Of a DNA stretch of 64,000 nucleotides, positions 39,523 through 47,153 are shown one piece after another (the stretch's first letter is position 1; every line of letters begins with the position of its first letter). The position numbers and the translations under genes are program-made. The DNA is from Leptolyngbya iicbica LK (GTDB lineage Bacteria; Cyanobacteriota; Cyanobacteriia; Phormidesmidales; Phormidesmidaceae): positions 182,805 through 246,804 of the forward strand of contig NZ_QVFV01000006.1 in the NCBI RefSeq assembly GCF_004212215.1, read 5' to 3'. Under the pieces are notes generated by a model. It was given only the letters and a program-made list of their open reading frames with translations. It had not been told where the DNA came from and did not search any database.

Positions 39523-42243
39523 ATGCCGCTTTTTAGACTGGAAGTAGGCACCATCAAAAGTTCGAGAGAGGGAGGCATTTTGCGACATCCACTCAGCCAT
39601 CGGGGAGTTGCGATCACCACTCGCGTCGGGATTTGGAGCGCCGCCGTGCTGACGGCACTGGTGGGTTGCGTCAATATCTGGTCTGCCGCAACCCCAAGTC
39701 TGCCCGCTCGCTTAGCCTGGCTAGAGCAGTTTTTGCCCCTCGAAGTCAGGGCCGGGGGCCATCTATTTGCAGCGTTGAGCGGCTTTTTCTTGCTGGCGCT
39801 GGCGGCTAATTTGCTGCGGCGCAAGCGGCTGGCTTGGTGGTTGACGGTGGGGTTGCTGGGGGTCTCCATTCTGAGTCACCTGGTCAAAGGATTGGACTAC
39901 GAAGAAGGCTTGCTGGCACTGGTGTTACTGTTCCAGCTCCTGTGGTTGCGGCCGGTCTTCACGGCTCAGTCCGATCGCCCCTCCATCGTGCAGGGCTTGC
40001 GAGTCCTCATCGGGGCGGTGCTCTTTATTCTGGCCTATGGCACGTTGGGGTTTTGGCTCCAAGAGCGTCAGTATGCCGCTGCTTTTAGCTTTGCCGCAGC
40101 GATCGCCCAAACGCTAGCGATGTTTTTCACCGCTGACAGTGGCGGACTGCAACCGATGACCCGTTTTGGGCGCTACTTTGCCGCGTCGATCTACGGGGTC
40201 AGCTTTGTCACCTTGCTCTATGCCGTCTGGATGCTGTTTCGCCCCGTCATTTTTCGCGGGGCCGCCAGTGAAGAAGAGCGGCAACGGGCACAAGCGATTG
40301 TCGAGCAGCATGGGCGATCGTCTCTGGCGCGATTTGCCTTGCTAGAGGACAAGTCCTACTACTTCAGTCCCTCAGGGCAATCGGTCATTGCCTACGTGCC
40401 CAAGGGCAGGGGCGCGGTGGCGCTGGGTGATCCGATTGGGCCAGCCAGCGATCGCCAGGAAACCATCCTGGGTTTTCGCACCTTTTGCAGTCGCAACGAC
40501 TGGCACCCGGCGTTTTATCAAACGCTGCCCGACGATGTGAGCCTCTACCGTTCCTTGGGCTTTCGGGTGCTGAAAATTGGCGAAGAGGCGATCGTGGATT
40601 TGCACCGCTTCACGTTAGAGGGAAAAGCGGGCCGGAATTTGCGCACCGCCATGAACAAGTTCACCAAGCAGGGCTATCGGGTGCAGTACTATCCGCCGCC
40701 GATCAGTCCCGAACTGCTGGCAGAACTGCAGGCGATCAGCGACGACTGGCTCGACTCCGTGCAGGGAGCGGAAAAGAAGTTTTCTCTCGGCTGGTTTGAC
40801 CCAGACTATCTACGAGACTGCGAAATTGCCGTCGTGGAAGATCCTCAGGGTACGCCCCTCGCCTTCGCCAACTTGATTCCGGAGTATCAGCTCAACGAAG
40901 CCACCATTGACCTGATGCGCCACCATCGCGGCTTAGAACGGGGCGTGATGGACTACCTGTTCACCTCGCTGTTGCAGCATTGCAAAGGGCAGGGCTTTGA
41001 CACCTTTAACTTAGGGCTGGTCGTGCTTTCAGGCGTAGGCGCAGATCCTCAAGCGCCACCGCTAGAAAAAGGCATGCACTACCTCTATGAGCACCTCAAC
41101 CAGTTCTACAACGTGCAAGGTTTACGGACTTACAAAGAGAAGTTTCAGCCGCGTTGGGAGCCGCGTTATTTTGTCTACCCGCGCCTGGCCGCCCTGCCTG
41201 ATGTGGTGGTAGCGCTGGTGCGGGCTGATTCGGGCGATCGCCTGCAAGACTACTTCGGCGCGGAGTTCTTTAGTATGCCGCTGACCACTGGCCTGAAACA
41301 ATTGTCACGGCTGGGGCCAATACTGCTCAGCCTGGGCTTATTTGCCCTGTCAGGGTGGGCCATCAGCCACGAATTGCGCCAATACAGTCTGCCAGACATT
41401 CTCAGCAGCATTGCGACCATCCCCAGCTGGGCGTTGGCCCTGGCGATCGCCCTCACCGTCATGAACTACGTCTTTCTCACCGGCTACGATACTCTGGCGA
41501 CCTATTTTGTGCGCCATCCCCTACCCTACCGCCAAACAGCCTTAGCAGCATTCATCAGCTACGCCATCAGCAACAGCGTGGGCTTCGCCTTGCTCAGCGG
41601 TAGCGCCATTCGCTATCGCTTTTACACCGCATGGGGACTGACACCAGGCCAAATTGGACAAATCATCGCCTTTTGCAACCTCAGTTTTTGGCTTGGGTTA
41701 TTTGCGATCGGGGGGCTGGTGTTTGCCGTAGAACCGCTGTCAGTACCGGGAATTTTGCACTTGCCCTTTGATACGGTGCATCCCCTCGGCCTCATCTTTT
41801 TGAGCAGCATTGCCGCCTACCTCATCCTCAGTCGCTTTAGCCACCGCCCCCTCAAACTGCGGAGTTGGGTAATGCCCCACTTACCGATACCCCTTGCCTT
41901 AGCGCAAATTACTGTCGCTGCCTGCGATTGGGCCTTGGCCGCCGCCGTGCTGTATGTGCTGTTGCCCACTCCCCCTGGGGTGAACTATGGCATCTTTTTC
42001 GGTAGTTACCTGCTGGCCCAAATCGCGGGCGTGATTAGCAATGTGCCAGGCGGTTTAGGCGTGTTTGAAACGGTGCTGCTACTCCTGCTCTCGCCACCCA
42101 TACCCTCAGAACAATTGCTCGGCGCGCTCCTGGTATATCGGGCAGTCTACTATCTCTTACCCTTGGGGTTAGGTGCAGGGTTGCTAGGTCTTTATGAGCT
42201 ACGGCAGCACCAAACGATCAACTCAGTTCAGTCAAAGTCATGA
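39523..42243 (+). CDS. mprF: MprF-like protein, synthetase domain before flippase domain
   Basis: The 906-residue protein begins with about six membrane helices (to about residue 250). A soluble DUF2156 aminoacyl-phosphatidylglycerol synthetase domain follows at about 255-560, with YFSPSGQSVIAYVPKGRGAV, ALGDPIGPASDR, RRNLRTAMNKF-like GRNLRTAMNKF, IDLMRHHRGLERGVMDYL and KFQPRWEPRYF. After it come about eight helices of the UPF0104 flippase type, ending VPGGLGVFETVLLLLL. In classical MprF the flippase region is N-terminal and the synthetase C-terminal; here a second membrane domain follows the synthetase. The protein would add lysine or another amino acid to phosphatidylglycerol and translocate the lipid. 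Activity is inferred. Confidence 0.85.
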   Translation: MPLFRLEVGTIKSSREGGILRHPLSHRGVAITTRVGIWSAAVLTALVGCVNIWSAATPSLPARLAWLEQFLPLEVRAGGHLFAALSGFFLLALAANLLRRKRLAWWLTVGLLGVSILSHLVKGLDYEEGLLALVLLFQLLWLRPVFTAQSDRPSIVQGLRVLIGAVLFILAYGTLGFWLQERQYAAAFSFAAAIAQTLAMFFTADSGGLQPMTRFGRYFAASIYGVSFVTLLYAVWMLFRPVIFRGAASEEERQRAQAIVEQHGRSSLARFALLEDKSYYFSPSGQSVIAYVPKGRGAVALGDPIGPASDRQETILGFRTFCSRNDWHPAFYQTLPDDVSLYRSLGFRVLKIGEEAIVDLHRFTLEGKAGRNLRTAMNKFTKQGYRVQYYPPPISPELLAELQAISDDWLDSVQGAEKKFSLGWFDPDYLRDCEIAVVEDPQGTPLAFANLIPEYQLNEATIDLMRHHRGLERGVMDYLFTSLLQHCKGQGFDTFNLGLVVLSGVGADPQAPPLEKGMHYLYEHLNQFYNVQGLRTYKEKFQPRWEPRYFVYPRLAALPDVVVALVRADSGDRLQDYFGAEFFSMPLTTGLKQLSRLGPILLSLGLFALSGWAISHELRQYSLPDILSSIATIPSWALALAIALTVMNYVFLTGYDTLATYFVRHPLPYRQTALAAFISYAISNSVGFALLSGSAIRYRFYTAWGLTPGQIGQIIAFCNLSFWLGLFAIGGLVFAVEPLSVPGILHLPFDTVHPLGLIFLSSIAAYLILSRFSHRPLKLRSWVMPHLPIPLALAQITVAACDWALAAAVLYVLLPTPPGVNYGIFFGSYLLAQIAGVISNVPGGLGVFETVLLLLLSPPIPSEQLLGALLVYRAVYYLLPLGLGAGLLGLYELRQHQTINSVQSKS

Positions 42244-42532: not shown

Positions 42533-43132
42533 ATGGCGTATGAGCTGCCCACACTACCTTACGACTACACAGCACTGGAGCCCCATATCTCCAAAAGCAC
42601 GTTGGAGTTTCACCATGACAAGCATCACGCCGCTTATGTCACAAAGTTCAATGCCGCAGTCGAAGGCTCGGACCTCGACTGCAAACCCATTGAGGATGCG
42701 ATCAAGACTTTAGCGAAAGATCCTGAAAAAAGTGGCGTTTTTAACAATGCCGCCCAGGCCTGGAACCACACGTTTTACTGGCACAGCATGAAGCCCAGTG
42801 GCGGCGGCATGCCTCAGGGCGAGCTGGCCAAGAAAATCGAGGCTGATTTTGGCAGCTATGAAAAGTTTGCTGAGGCGTTTAAGAATGCCGGGGCAACTCA
42901 GTTTGGCAGTGGTTGGGCCTGGCTGGTGTTGGATGGAAATACTCTCAAAGTCACCAAAACCCTGAATGCTGATAATCCCCTCACTGCCGGACAAGTTCCC
43001 CTAATCACGATGGATGTCTGGGAGCATGCCTACTATTTGGATTATCAGAATAAGCGCCCCGACTACATCGGCGCGTTCTTAGGCAGTTTAGTGAACTGGG
43101 ATTTTGCTGCTAAGAATCTAGCAGCGGCTTAG
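42533..43132 (+). CDS. sodB: Iron superoxide dismutase
   Basis: The 199-residue protein shows LEFHHDKHHAAYV (first metal His), NNAAQAWNHTFYWHSM (second His), QFGSGWAWLVLD and the final metal site MDVWEHAYYLDYQ (Asp and His). The AAQxWNH and GATQFGSGWAWL patterns are those of the Fe-type rather than the Mn-type. It detoxifies superoxide in the cytosol. The ribosome site GAGAGGAGAG precedes ATG 42533, and a good terminator follows. Confidence 0.96.
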   Translation: MAYELPTLPYDYTALEPHISKSTLEFHHDKHHAAYVTKFNAAVEGSDLDCKPIEDAIKTLAKDPEKSGVFNNAAQAWNHTFYWHSMKPSGGGMPQGELAKKIEADFGSYEKFAEAFKNAGATQFGSGWAWLVLDGNTLKVTKTLNADNPLTAGQVPLITMDVWEHAYYLDYQNKRPDYIGAFLGSLVNWDFAAKNLAAA

Positions 43133-43804: not shown

Positions 43805-44626
43805 ATGATCGTTTGCCCTAACTGTAATCATCAAAATCCTGATGGTGCAGTCCAGTGTGAGGCTTGCTATACCCCCTTGCCAGTGCTGGCGACTTGCCCC
43901 AGTTGCCAAGCAACAGTGCAGTCAGACGCAAGCTTTTGTGGGCAATGTGGGTTTGACCTCAGGACGGTGAGCCCTGCGGCCAGTCAATCGGCGAGTACTG
44001 TGCCCAGTGCGGAGAGCGCTAGTGAACCAGATTACGAAGCCACGGTGCCCGGCATTGATGACGATGTCGAAATTCCTGAATTGTTGCCGCCCGAGCCCTT
44101 AATCGCAACGGCCCCGGCTGCCCCCCCGACCGAAGCGGCCAGCCCGCCAGGACCACCACCGCCCCTGCCCGAGACACCCCCCAGTATTGCGGCACCGCTT
44201 GAGAACGGGCCAAATGAGCCCATGACGGCTCCGCCGGCACCTTTACCAACCAGTCCGGGGGCCGGAGCGGCAAATCTGGGTTCAACGCAGCTACAAATTA
44301 ATCAAGCCAAGCTGTTGCACGTTCAGACCAACACGACGCTGGAGCTACCGCCGCAGTTAACCATCATTCATCTGGGGAAGCCCAACGATCGCATTCCCCC
44401 AACCATTGACGTGTCAGGGTTCCCTGATTCAGAAATTGTTTCACGGGTCCACGCCAACCTTCGAGTTGAGGGCGACATCTACTACATTGAAGACGTGGGC
44501 AGCTCTAACGGCACCTATGTCAACAACATGCCGTTACCCCCAGGTAACCGTCACCGACTGCGGGCGGGCGATCGCATCGCCCTGGGTAAAGGAGATAAAG
44601 TTACTTTTATTTTCCAGTCTGGCTAA
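43805..44626 (+). CDS. Zinc-ribbon and FHA-domain protein
   Basis: From ATG 43805 (MIVCPNCNHQNPDGAVQCEA) the protein has 273 residues. The first 52 residues hold a double zinc ribbon with four CxxC pairs (CPNC, CEAC, CPSC, CGQC). A long Pro/Ala/Glu linker follows. An FHA domain (about 180-270) has IHLGKPNDRIPPTIDVSGF, EIVSRVHANL and VGSSNGTYVNN, including the Ser-Arg-x-His and Asn residues that bind phosphothreonine. It should read out Ser/Thr kinase signalling. It is followed by a second FHA protein and an LRAT-like protein on the same strand, with gaps of 58-67 and 31 bp. Confidence 0.9.
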   Translation: MIVCPNCNHQNPDGAVQCEACYTPLPVLATCPSCQATVQSDASFCGQCGFDLRTVSPAASQSASTVPSAESASEPDYEATVPGIDDDVEIPELLPPEPLIATAPAAPPTEAASPPGPPPPLPETPPSIAAPLENGPNEPMTAPPAPLPTSPGAGAANLGSTQLQINQAKLLHVQTNTTLELPPQLTIIHLGKPNDRIPPTIDVSGFPDSEIVSRVHANLRVEGDIYYIEDVGSSNGTYVNNMPLPPGNRHRLRAGDRIALGKGDKVTFIFQSG

Positions 44627-44684
44627 GTAGTTTACGCTTAAGCTAATTTCCAGCTCATGCCAGCAGTTTGCTATCGCCTATAGG

Positions 44685-45155
44685 TTGAGAGATGTGATTA
44701 CTCTTTCGCTGCTACATCCTCTGAATAAAAAACCCGTCCAGCACTGGACGTTCGAAGAAGACTCCGTCATTCGAATTGGTCGCTCTACCGAAAATCAGGT
44801 GGTGCTCTACAGTGCCGTGGTCTCTCGCCATCATGTGGAATTGCGGCAAACGGATGCCGGTTGGGAGATTGTGAATCTCGGCACCAACGGCACTTACCTG
44901 GATGGTAAGCGGGTGGCCCAAGCGATCGCGGAAGATGGAATGGTGATTCGGCTGGCGCGTTCTGGCCCCAACATTCAAATCAACATCAGCCAAGAGGCCC
45001 CCGACTCGATGAAGGCATTGCGCCAACTGCAATCCAACGCCGAGAGTCGCACCAAGGTCGAGTTTAACGACACCCATTCCGCTGATGCCCATCCGACCCG
45101 CATTGATCCAGATCACAAGACCACTTCCGAGACATCGCCCTCTGTGCAGTCTTAA
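44685..45155 (+). CDS. FHA-domain protein
   Basis: The 156-residue product starts at TTG 44685 or GTG 44694 (VITLSLLHPL). The FHA domain spans about 1-100 with VIRIGRSTENQVVLYSAVVS, RHHVELRQ and LGTNGTYLDGKRV, and keeps the phosphothreonine contacts. The remainder is a polar tail rich in Thr/Ser/Asp that may itself be phosphorylated. It lies between the zinc-ribbon FHA gene and the LRAT-PspA-like gene and is probably co-transcribed with them. Confidence 0.88.
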   Translation: MRDVITLSLLHPLNKKPVQHWTFEEDSVIRIGRSTENQVVLYSAVVSRHHVELRQTDAGWEIVNLGTNGTYLDGKRVAQAIAEDGMVIRLARSGPNIQINISQEAPDSMKALRQLQSNAESRTKVEFNDTHSADAHPTRIDPDHKTTSETSPSVQS

Positions 45156-45186
45156 CGCCAACGTGTTGTGAGCCGGGAGATGAGCC

Positions 45187-45882
45187 ATGGCGCTAGGTGA
45201 CCAGGTCTACGCGATGCGTGAGGTGGCGGGGGTGCCGGGCGTCTATGAGCACCACGGCATCGACTGTGGCCCCGATGCCATCGTTCATTACTACAAAGGG
45301 GGCGACGTCCCCACTGTTACCAGCACCCCAAGGGACTTGTTTGCGCGGGGGGGCCGAATTTTTGTGAAGCCGCGATCGCTGGCTTTTTTGCCGCACATCG
45401 TGGTGCAGCGGGCCCAGAGTCGGTTAGGCGAACAGCGCTACGACCTGCTGACCAACAACTGCGAACATTTTGCCAACTGGTGCAAAACGGGCCGCAACGA
45501 CTGTGAACAACTGGCAGGCTTTGGGTTACAAATCGATCGCTATAACTTGCCCGACTTGCGCCGCTTGATCGAGGGTACCGCCAGCGATCGCGCCCCAGAC
45601 GAAGCCATTGCCCTTTTTCACGATGCCTTGGGTAATATCGCCGCCGCCCACCAAACCCTCAAGCGCGAATATGACCAGGCCCGTCAGGATATGGACACCT
45701 GGGAACGGGTGGCAGCGGCCGCTTTGCAGCGCGATCGCGAAGACCTGGCCCGCGCCGCCCTGCATCGCAAAGTGGCCGCCAAGAAAAAGGTGGATCACCT
45801 CACTGAGCAACTCACGGAGCTGGTCGATGTGCAGCTAACCTTGGAGCGCAATCGCCTGCGGGCCGCTGAGCGCTCCTCCTGA
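45187..45882 (+). CDS. LRAT-domain protein with a PspA-like coiled-coil tail
   Basis: The 231-residue protein begins with an LRAT/NlpC-P60-like domain: MALGDQVYAMREVAGVPGVY, EHHGIDCGPDAIVHY with the catalytic His, and LLTNNCEHFANWCKTG with the catalytic Cys. From about residue 130 a charged alpha-helical coiled coil follows, whose segment ALQRDREDLARAALHRK closely resembles PspA/Vipp1 (IM30) helices. LRAT enzymes are lipid acyltransferases or thioester hydrolases; PspA binds stressed membranes. The fusion suggests an acyltransferase or protease-like enzyme brought to membranes. The two FHA genes in front hint at kinase control. Both conclusions are inference. Confidence 0.82.
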   Translation: MALGDQVYAMREVAGVPGVYEHHGIDCGPDAIVHYYKGGDVPTVTSTPRDLFARGGRIFVKPRSLAFLPHIVVQRAQSRLGEQRYDLLTNNCEHFANWCKTGRNDCEQLAGFGLQIDRYNLPDLRRLIEGTASDRAPDEAIALFHDALGNIAAAHQTLKREYDQARQDMDTWERVAAAALQRDREDLARAALHRKVAAKKKVDHLTEQLTELVDVQLTLERNRLRAAERSS

Positions 45883-46121: not shown

Positions 46122-47153
46122 TTAAAGCGCGAGCCCAGGCCACTCTGACATTGGCAGCTCGGTGGTGACACGGTGCATGCCAGCGGCGGCAAAACGCGCA
46201 TAAGCTTCATCGGCAGCATCGGTGAAGTCCACCACGTCGGGCACCACGACGGGAGACGTGCAGTCTTCCAGCAGATACACTTTTTGCGCCAGTTGTGGAT
46301 CGCGGGCGTTGATTTCCGTCAGGAGATCTTCTACCGACCAGGCCACACAGTGACTCTTAGCCTGACCCGCCACCACGATCGCATCAAAATCCAGCAGCTT
46401 GTCGGTAAATCGCTGATTCTTGCGAGCGATCGCGCTCCCTTGACTGTCTTCCAACACTTCAGGACTCAGGACAGAATAGTTTTCCGTCAGGGGATTGCTG
46501 CCCTTGACTTCATACAAGGTCGGACTGTGGCGGGCGATGGAATGAAAGAAACAAGCTTCTTCAATGGCGGACACGAGGGCGTGCCCAATGCCCCCCAACA
46601 TGGAATGGTACGGCCAAATCGTGAGGGGATATTTGCTGTCGTAGGTGAGCCGCCGGGTATAGTGCAGCGCAAACTCTTGCAAATCTTCGACCGCCATGTA
46701 GGGGGCCATCTCCGGATTGACCTGCCATTTTCCGGCCACCACGTCGTCGTAGCTGATCATGGTCATCGGTGCGGGGGGATTGCCCTGACTGTCAAGCCAG
46801 AATAAGGGATGGAAAATTTGGGCAGCGGTGTGAGTATCCAGAGTCGGGGCGATCGCGGTAATGACGCCCAAGTTTTGGTAGATGAACTGACACAATCGGC
46901 GATTGTCGTTCAGTGCGCCCTGGCCCGATCGCCCGCCCACATACAGTTCAAACTCAGGTAGGCAGAACGTATTTTGCACGTCAATGAGTAAGAGACATAG
47001 TCGTAGCGGATCTTGACTCGCAGGAGCAATGTCTTGCTGTTGAGCCCAGGCACGGGCCGCGATCGCCCGTTCTTGATAGGGCACACGATAGACCTGCGTC
47101 ACTTGGTCAGCTTGGACAAAATCGGGGACCGGAAGGGTGGTAACAGGGGGCAT
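46122..47153 (-). CDS. Isochorismatase-like cysteine hydrolase
   Basis: The 343-residue protein has the nicotinamidase/isochorismatase catalytic set: Asp in LLLIDVQNTFCLPEFELYVG, a Lys region near SYDDVVAGKWQVN, and Cys in VAGQAKSHCVAWSVEDL. It is longer than a simple nicotinamidase (about 200 residues), with an N-terminal extension of about 50 residues and an insert around TLDTHTAAQIFHPLFWLD. It could hydrolyse nicotinamide or another amide. It faces the LOG gene divergently across 242 bp. Confidence 0.82.
   Translation of the reverse strand: MPPVTTLPVPDFVQADQVTQVYRVPYQERAIAARAWAQQQDIAPASQDPLRLCLLLIDVQNTFCLPEFELYVGGRSGQGALNDNRRLCQFIYQNLGVITAIAPTLDTHTAAQIFHPLFWLDSQGNPPAPMTMISYDDVVAGKWQVNPEMAPYMAVEDLQEFALHYTRRLTYDSKYPLTIWPYHSMLGGIGHALVSAIEEACFFHSIARHSPTLYEVKGSNPLTENYSVLSPEVLEDSQGSAIARKNQRFTDKLLDFDAIVVAGQAKSHCVAWSVEDLLTEINARDPQLAQKVYLLEDCTSPVVVPDVVDFTDAADEAYARFAAAGMHRVTTELPMSEWPGLAL

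Follow-up and report, generated by a model that had tools for sequence, protein, structure and literature searches.

Cyanobacteria widely encode a protein in which an LRAT/PLAAT-type catalytic domain is fused to a PspA/Vipp1-type hairpin. This fusion is real and already partly published, and in one clade it is recurrently linked to FHA-domain readers and to a decaying kinase. We describe it here from a 64-kb window (the whole stretch of DNA analyzed, 64,000 nucleotides of Leptolyngbya iicbica LK), where three consecutive open reading frames on the + strand encode zFHA, which combines a double zinc ribbon with an FHA domain, then another FHA protein (FHA2), and finally the fusion itself (LRAT–PspA), with the following features.

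43805..44626, + strand: zFHA, with an N-terminal double zinc ribbon, a proline-rich linker and a C-terminal FHA domain (Pfam)
43814..43951, + strand: double zinc ribbon of zFHA, residues 4-49 (Pfam DZR)
44429..44587, + strand: FHA stretch matched in zFHA, residues 209-261, profile positions 15-67 (Pfam)
44685..45155, + strand: FHA2, an FHA domain plus a short tail (Pfam)
44769..44954, + strand: residues 29-90 of FHA2, its FHA domain, carrying motifs IGRS, SRHH and TNGT (Pfam)
45187..45882, + strand: LRAT–PspA-hairpin fusion, 231 aa (Pfam LRAT and PspA_IM30)
45193..45498, + strand: LRAT/PLAAT-type catalytic domain, residues 3-104 (Pfam; structural match to PLAAT3 7zom)
45250..45252, + strand: His22, aligned to PLAAT His23 (alignment; invariant in 64/64)
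45286..45288, + strand: His34, aligned to PLAAT His35 (alignment; invariant in 64/64)
45460..45462, + strand: Cys92 of NCEHF, aligned to PLAAT Cys113 (alignment; invariant in 64/64)
45595..45876, + strand: PspA/Vipp1-type hairpin, residues 137-230, with helices at 137-181 and 185-230 (AlphaFold2 model, Foldseek, profile comparisons)
45700..45771, + strand: hairpin-tip region, residues 172-195, with the tail's best conserved positions and its most Vipp1-like part

The gaps between the three genes are 58 bp (zFHA to FHA2) and 31 bp (FHA2 to LRAT–PspA), which agrees with the tight same-strand run described in an earlier note on this DNA. The listed open reading frame of zFHA begins at GTG 43760, and the gene is placed at 43805-44626. 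The true start of FHA2 may be GTG 44694, because five FHA2-kinase relatives begin at the matching VITL, and the first gap would then measure 67 bp. Pfam finds the two FHA domains that the note had read in the first two proteins, assigning DZR (46.0 bits) and FHA (PF00498, 59.9 bits) to zFHA and FHA (56.9 bits) to FHA2. In the third protein it matches LRAT (PF04970, 73.6 bits; cut-off, 24.3) and PspA_IM30 at residues 145-220 (36.7 bits; cut-off, 33.9). NCBIfam returned only below-cut-off matches. A promoter scan placed no promoter-like site on the + strand, its total of 2 against 1.6 in shuffles being background, and so lends no support to a single transcript. Upstream of zFHA in the window lies sodB (42533-43132), in place of a 6-phosphogluconolactonase gene, and beyond it a 906-aa lysyl-phosphatidylglycerol synthase-like protein (39523-42243), another membrane-lipid enzyme. 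Downstream, a 343-aa protein encoded on the - strand (46122-47153) is not matched by any Pfam family, even with E allowed up to 1.

The catalytic half was compared across 64 aligned fusions, comprising the window protein and 63 of 80 loci, trimmed at 82% identity and leaving out L082 and L090 (both cut) as well as L095; the 80 loci are the best 80 of 244, a choice that favors near full-length matches. His22, His23, His34, Asn91, Cys92, Glu93, and His94 are invariant in all 64, and both LRAT and PspA_IM30 are matched at E<=0.01 in 64/64 of these sequences, picked as they were for near full-length matches. The closest relative among the best 80 of 244 matches is that of Halomicronema sp. CCY15110, with 90% identity over LRAT–PspA. 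In a profile of 17 catalytic domains, H22, H34, and C92 align with H23, H35, and C113 of human PLAAT2/PLAAT3 (numbering read off alignments), and the available passages of PMC9338259 describe Cys113 as critical in PLAAT3. An AlphaFold2 model of LRAT–PspA (mean pLDDT, 85.6; pTM, 0.57) places residues 1-104 on PLAAT3 7zom with a Z of 13.5 and an rmsd of 1.8 over 97 residues at 26% identity. The LRAT-type cysteine enzyme proposed in the earlier note is thus recovered in fold and residues, and its active site looks complete.

LRAT–PspA shares its fold, its His/His/Cys triad and NCEHF with the PLAAT/HRASLS phospholipase A-acyltransferases, and differs from them at the C terminus, where PLAAT3 has a putative transmembrane segment according to the passages available from PMC9338259 and LRAT–PspA has an ESCRT-III hairpin. 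No segment of transmembrane strength comparable to the PLAAT3 C-terminal anchor is found in the window's LRAT–PspA, where the highest 19-residue hydropathy mean is 0.84. LRAT was reportedly placed in the NlpC/P60 superfamily by Anantharaman and Aravind in 2003, a source cited by Ravi et al. An LRAT-fold domain might also act on proteins, as a thiol protease, deamidase or deacylase, with Vipp1 or a phosphoprotein brought in by FHA as possible targets. The NlpC/P60-like superfamily includes many peptidases, and PPPDE peptidase is weakly matched (E<=0.01) in 24/64 fusions. However, sequence comparison leads to solved structures of PLAAT phospholipase/acyltransferases and of an LRAT chimera, all of which have this triad and NCEHF, and variants of the fusion with a hydrophobic segment exist, so we regard a protein substrate as improbable. 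The genome of the window also contains a second, weaker LRAT-domain match (L251, C5:6372-6710, 30.1 bits), whose ORFs of at least 100 aa contain no NC[EW]HF motif.

The C-terminal tail, which the earlier note had called PspA/IM30-like, is a true homolog of PspA/Vipp1, but only of its hairpin. Comparison by hhalign with 26 Vipp1/PspA sequences gives a probability of 98.5% (E 2.5e-15, 89 columns), against 0.23% for an unrelated coiled-coil family (12 sequences), at most 2.5% for 20 column-shuffled Vipp1 profiles, and 4.6% for the reversed tail. A generic coiled-coil tail was rejected on this contrast, no control exceeding 4.6%. A profile search of PDB sequences matches the tail to Vipp1 at 2.7e-11, spanning Vipp1 23-128 at most, and Foldseek returns VIPP1 with a probability of 1.00 at 24% identity, its top seven PDB matches all being VIPP1 or PspA. 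The whole LRAT–PspA model had no PDB match in Foldseek at E<=0.001 (best, 6.5e-3), and Z values for the long helices are uninformative, many unrelated hairpins reaching Z near 10.

The likeness is limited in extent. The tail covers positions 43-118 of the 220 in the PspA profile, that is, most of the hairpin and not a whole PspA, and alpha0, alpha4, and alpha5 are missing from it as judged from the Pfam span, the Vipp1 span, and the model, which stops after the hairpin. Because these helices are absent, we do not file LRAT–PspA as a PspA/Vipp1 protein but as a carrier of the hairpin. It has in common with Vipp1/IM30 and PspA, the bacterial ESCRT-III proteins, a homologous hairpin with a conserved tip; unlike them, it would not be expected to self-polymerize in the manner of Vipp1.

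A hairpin without alpha0 and alpha4-5 may do no more than dimerize. The tail might accordingly be a coiled-coil dimerizer that has lost contact with Vipp1/PspA, leaving the enzyme to act without them, a reading in line with the missing helices and with a hairpin body that shares 15-18% identity with Vipp1 of this genome (5/28 and 5/34). What argues against it is that the conserved part is the tip and not the coiled body. Identity to the same Vipp1 rises to 13/24 at the tip (residues 172-195), and the mean entropy of residues 183-200 is 1.17, compared with 1.08 for the catalytic domain and about 2.2 for the hairpin body. In the passages available from PMC8281802, the tip is the alpha5-receiving site of Vipp1, with alpha5 of a neighboring subunit binding across it. 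We consider dimerization alone quite unlikely. Tip conservation suggests instead docking on Vipp1/PspA polymers, and since the tip is kept while alpha0, alpha4, and alpha5 are absent, LRAT–PspA could join such a polymer and not build one. The genome encodes two full-length PspA/Vipp1 genes.

The fusion type is not new. In the work of Ravi et al. (2024), AFZ52345.1 appears as a fusion of PspA_IM30 with NlpC/P60 that is predicted to modify phosphatidylcholine, and judged by the description in the available passages (PMC11237479) it probably belongs to the same family as LRAT–PspA. Like LRAT–PspA, it joins a papain-like enzyme superfamily to PspA with a predicted role in lipid modification. Unlike the present case, phosphatidylcholine is named as the substrate and no FHA gene is mentioned, FHA and LRAT each having 0 occurrences in the main text, and the hairpin-only nature of the tail does not appear in those passages. 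The link of FHA proteins or a pseudokinase to LRAT–PspA was not found in the literature searched, most subscription journals lying outside its scope, and most searches that paired cyanobacterial LRAT with PspA or FHA turned up no paper on the subject. Neither FHA nor LRAT occurs in the available passages of PMC9239133, and those of a bacterial kinase review (PMC6213207) mention FHA proteins with nothing on an LRAT–PspA/FHA locus.

We observe a near full-length fusion in about 133 of 388 Cyanobacteriia genomes, roughly a third, a number picked by eye from the match table and then counted, with a few cut by contig ends; it is used instead of the raw tally of 242/388, which must include genomes matched only by the tail (Vipp1/PspA). 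Weaker best matches (2.4e-34 to 4.0e-14) are present in 53 further genomes, and 14/14 among the matches listed cover the LRAT part. In 48 genomes from the other classes of the phylum, which we take to be non-photosynthetic, the LRAT part has no match, and the full profile matched nine of them by the hairpin part only.

The three-gene order, whose conservation the earlier note had proposed to check, recurs in several cyanobacterial families, and an accident of one genome is thereby rejected. Both outcomes that the note named as refuting it, a tail unlike PspA in profile comparison and genes that never co-occur elsewhere, are contradicted by the results. Counting as upstream any gene on the same strand at a gap of up to 4 kb, we scored 131 distinct loci: 45 have FHA2 or its kinase upstream of LRAT–PspA, 79 are without it, and 7 are uninformative. 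These loci combine, after removal of identical fusion proteins, 80 contig loci (FHA2/kinase upstream in 36, 32 of which also have zFHA; none in 39; 5 uninformative) with an overlapping set of 72 (upstream in 21, 17 with zFHA; 49 without; 2 uninformative). The kinase match of L095, counted among the 36, is probably unrelated. A single 73-row clade of the fusion tree holds 42 of the 45 linked loci, together with 28 unlinked and 3 uninformative ones (hand count, checked). Within it, FHA2 adjacency spans most branches and is absent from a 17-row branch and eight Nodosilinea-like rows; beyond it, the neighbors of LRAT–PspA vary. The FastTree topology requires 8 changes of adjacency, with gain and loss not distinguishable.

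In BLAST clusters of the 80 loci, the FHA2 family counts 37, zFHA 33, and 6-phosphogluconolactonase 21, with all other same-strand flanking families at 9 or fewer. The 6-phosphogluconolactonase gene lies upstream of zFHA in 20 or 21 of the 80 loci (e.g., L036, L061, L066, L083, L085, and L094), giving a recurrent run of pgl–zFHA–FHA2(-kinase)–LRAT–PspA. The family of the window includes 55 genomes with the fusion, 30 of which also have zFHA while the other 25 give no match to zFHA at E<=1e-30, and two genomes with zFHA and without the fusion.

These counts bear on whether the genes work together at all. LRAT–PspA could be a self-sufficient lipid enzyme, with the FHA pair a separate phospho-signaling unit, often 6-phosphogluconolactonase–zFHA–FHA2-kinase, that is a mere neighbor in one large clade. 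Such independence would fit the presence of zFHA in 271/388 genomes against the roughly 133 with a near full-length fusion, several loci that carry FHA2-kinase and zFHA with no LRAT–PspA in the stretch examined, and the 79 LRAT–PspA loci where the upstream 4 kb contain no FHA2. Yet adjacency persists in 42 of 73 rows across most branches of the clade while other flanking genes turn over, and in the window's family the starts of the fusion and zFHA lie within 1.6 kb of each other in 23/23 among the genomes listed with both positions. We consider an independent FHA unit somewhat unlikely, and slightly prefer the reading in which the FHA proteins would be tied to the enzyme.

FHA2 retains the phosphothreonine-contact motifs IGRS, SRHH, and TNGT. 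In the FHA domain of zFHA, SR-x-H and SSNGT are present and a Lys replaces the usual first pocket Arg (GKPNDR, ~44372-44590), both in the window and in all 30 pattern-caught zFHA proteins listed, of 66 unique. This Lys may alter phosphothreonine binding, and because of it the predicted binding by zFHA is less sure than that by FHA2.

A Ser/Thr kinase, whose co-occurrence the earlier note had raised, is found fused to FHA2 itself in relatives of other families (L083, L084, L085, L086, L090, L094, and others), as in FHA–Hanks kinase proteins, and scores 86-129 bits with Pfam Pkinase in the four FHA2-kinases tested; Pfam finds no kinase domain in the window's FHA2. In a 26-kinase alignment, Lys, the HRD Asp, and the DFG Asp are all intact in 1/13 kinases beside LRAT–PspA versus 8/13 elsewhere, a contrast whose Fisher p of 0.011 ignores shared ancestry and the near-twins L083/L085, L124/L125, and L130/L133. 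The set comprises loci from best matches only, L118 (in-frame stop) and FHA-region duplicates having been dropped and L156 being cut by a contig end, and kinases were taken as not beside LRAT when it was not seen within about 1.5 kb. In the other 12 of the 13 linked kinases, at least one of the two Asp residues (HRD or DFG) is missing. On a tree of the FHA pair (quick method), the kinase state changes at least 4 times, gain and loss again being indistinguishable. From the fused relatives, the residue losses, and these changes, the kinase appears historically tied to the locus and mostly degraded where it stands beside LRAT–PspA. Since 12/13 are not intact, local phospho-control may be vestigial. 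The mostly degenerate kinase, like the 79 unlinked loci and the prior publication of the fusion, counts against the simple FHA-controlled enzyme that the earlier note had pictured. The genome of the window has 26 kinase match rows over the cut-off, some being pieces of one gene.

The explanation that we favor, tentatively, is a PLAAT/LRAT-type lipid enzyme that docks on Vipp1/PspA by its hairpin and that FHA adaptors link to phospho-signaling in one clade. LRAT–PspA would be a soluble enzyme of the thiol type, and its most likely activity is that of a phospholipase A or acyltransferase on cyanobacterial membrane lipids; phosphatidylcholine is, to our knowledge, absent from most cyanobacteria. 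The ESCRT-III hairpin would replace a PLAAT-like hydrophobic anchor as the membrane address, docking on, or packing next to, the assemblies that the cell's Vipp1/PspA form at stressed membranes, with the tip kept as an alpha5-receiving site and its own alpha0, alpha4, and alpha5 missing. In the window's clade, the two FHA proteins, one of them from a family that elsewhere bears a kinase or pseudokinase, would probably act as adaptors tying the enzyme to Ser/Thr phospho-signaling, with phosphorylation supplied in trans by other kinases of the genome. Lipid substrate, Vipp1 docking, and FHA control are all parts that we infer. A stricter version, in which the lipid enzyme sits on Vipp1/PspA repair assemblies through a hairpin that accepts and does not donate alpha5 while an FHA–pseudokinase pair sets the timing, is speculative and in our view unlikely; if true, it would couple polymer assembly and lipid surgery at the site of damage.

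Vipp1 maintains the integrity of photosynthetic membranes, and we know of no enzyme that reworks lipids at Vipp1 assembly sites. The LRAT–PspA family would unite these two predicted functions, lipid enzyme and Vipp1 type, in one chain. By analogy it may parallel the animal PLAAT enzymes, which relocate to damaged organelle membranes in the passages available from PMC10760033. PLAAT3 moved to mitochondria deforms them via its phospholipase activity (PMC9338259, available passages), which may serve as a precedent that recruitment suffices.

Seven of the weaker loci were examined (L213-L219). In three of them (fusions at L213:2584-3459, L214:2998-3723, and L216:2620-3306), LRAT is joined to a PspA hairpin through a hydrophobic segment, the PspA score of L214 being under the Pfam cut-off; they possibly represent an architecture intermediate between PLAAT-like proteins and that of the window. 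The segment is Gly/Ala-rich, is located after the NCEHF motif, reaches a 19-residue hydropathy mean of 1.77-1.97, and fits with work at membranes. In L215, LRAT is followed by a glycine-rich hydrophobic end, and L219 is short. Two small-genome cyanobacteria (L217:2635-3312 and L218:2629-3387) have LRAT with another tail and no PspA match. Finally, the lone non-cyanobacterial title among the 80 loci (L100, Chloroflexaceae MAG SM1_2_4) falls among cyanobacterial fusions in the tree, so the contig was probably mis-binned.
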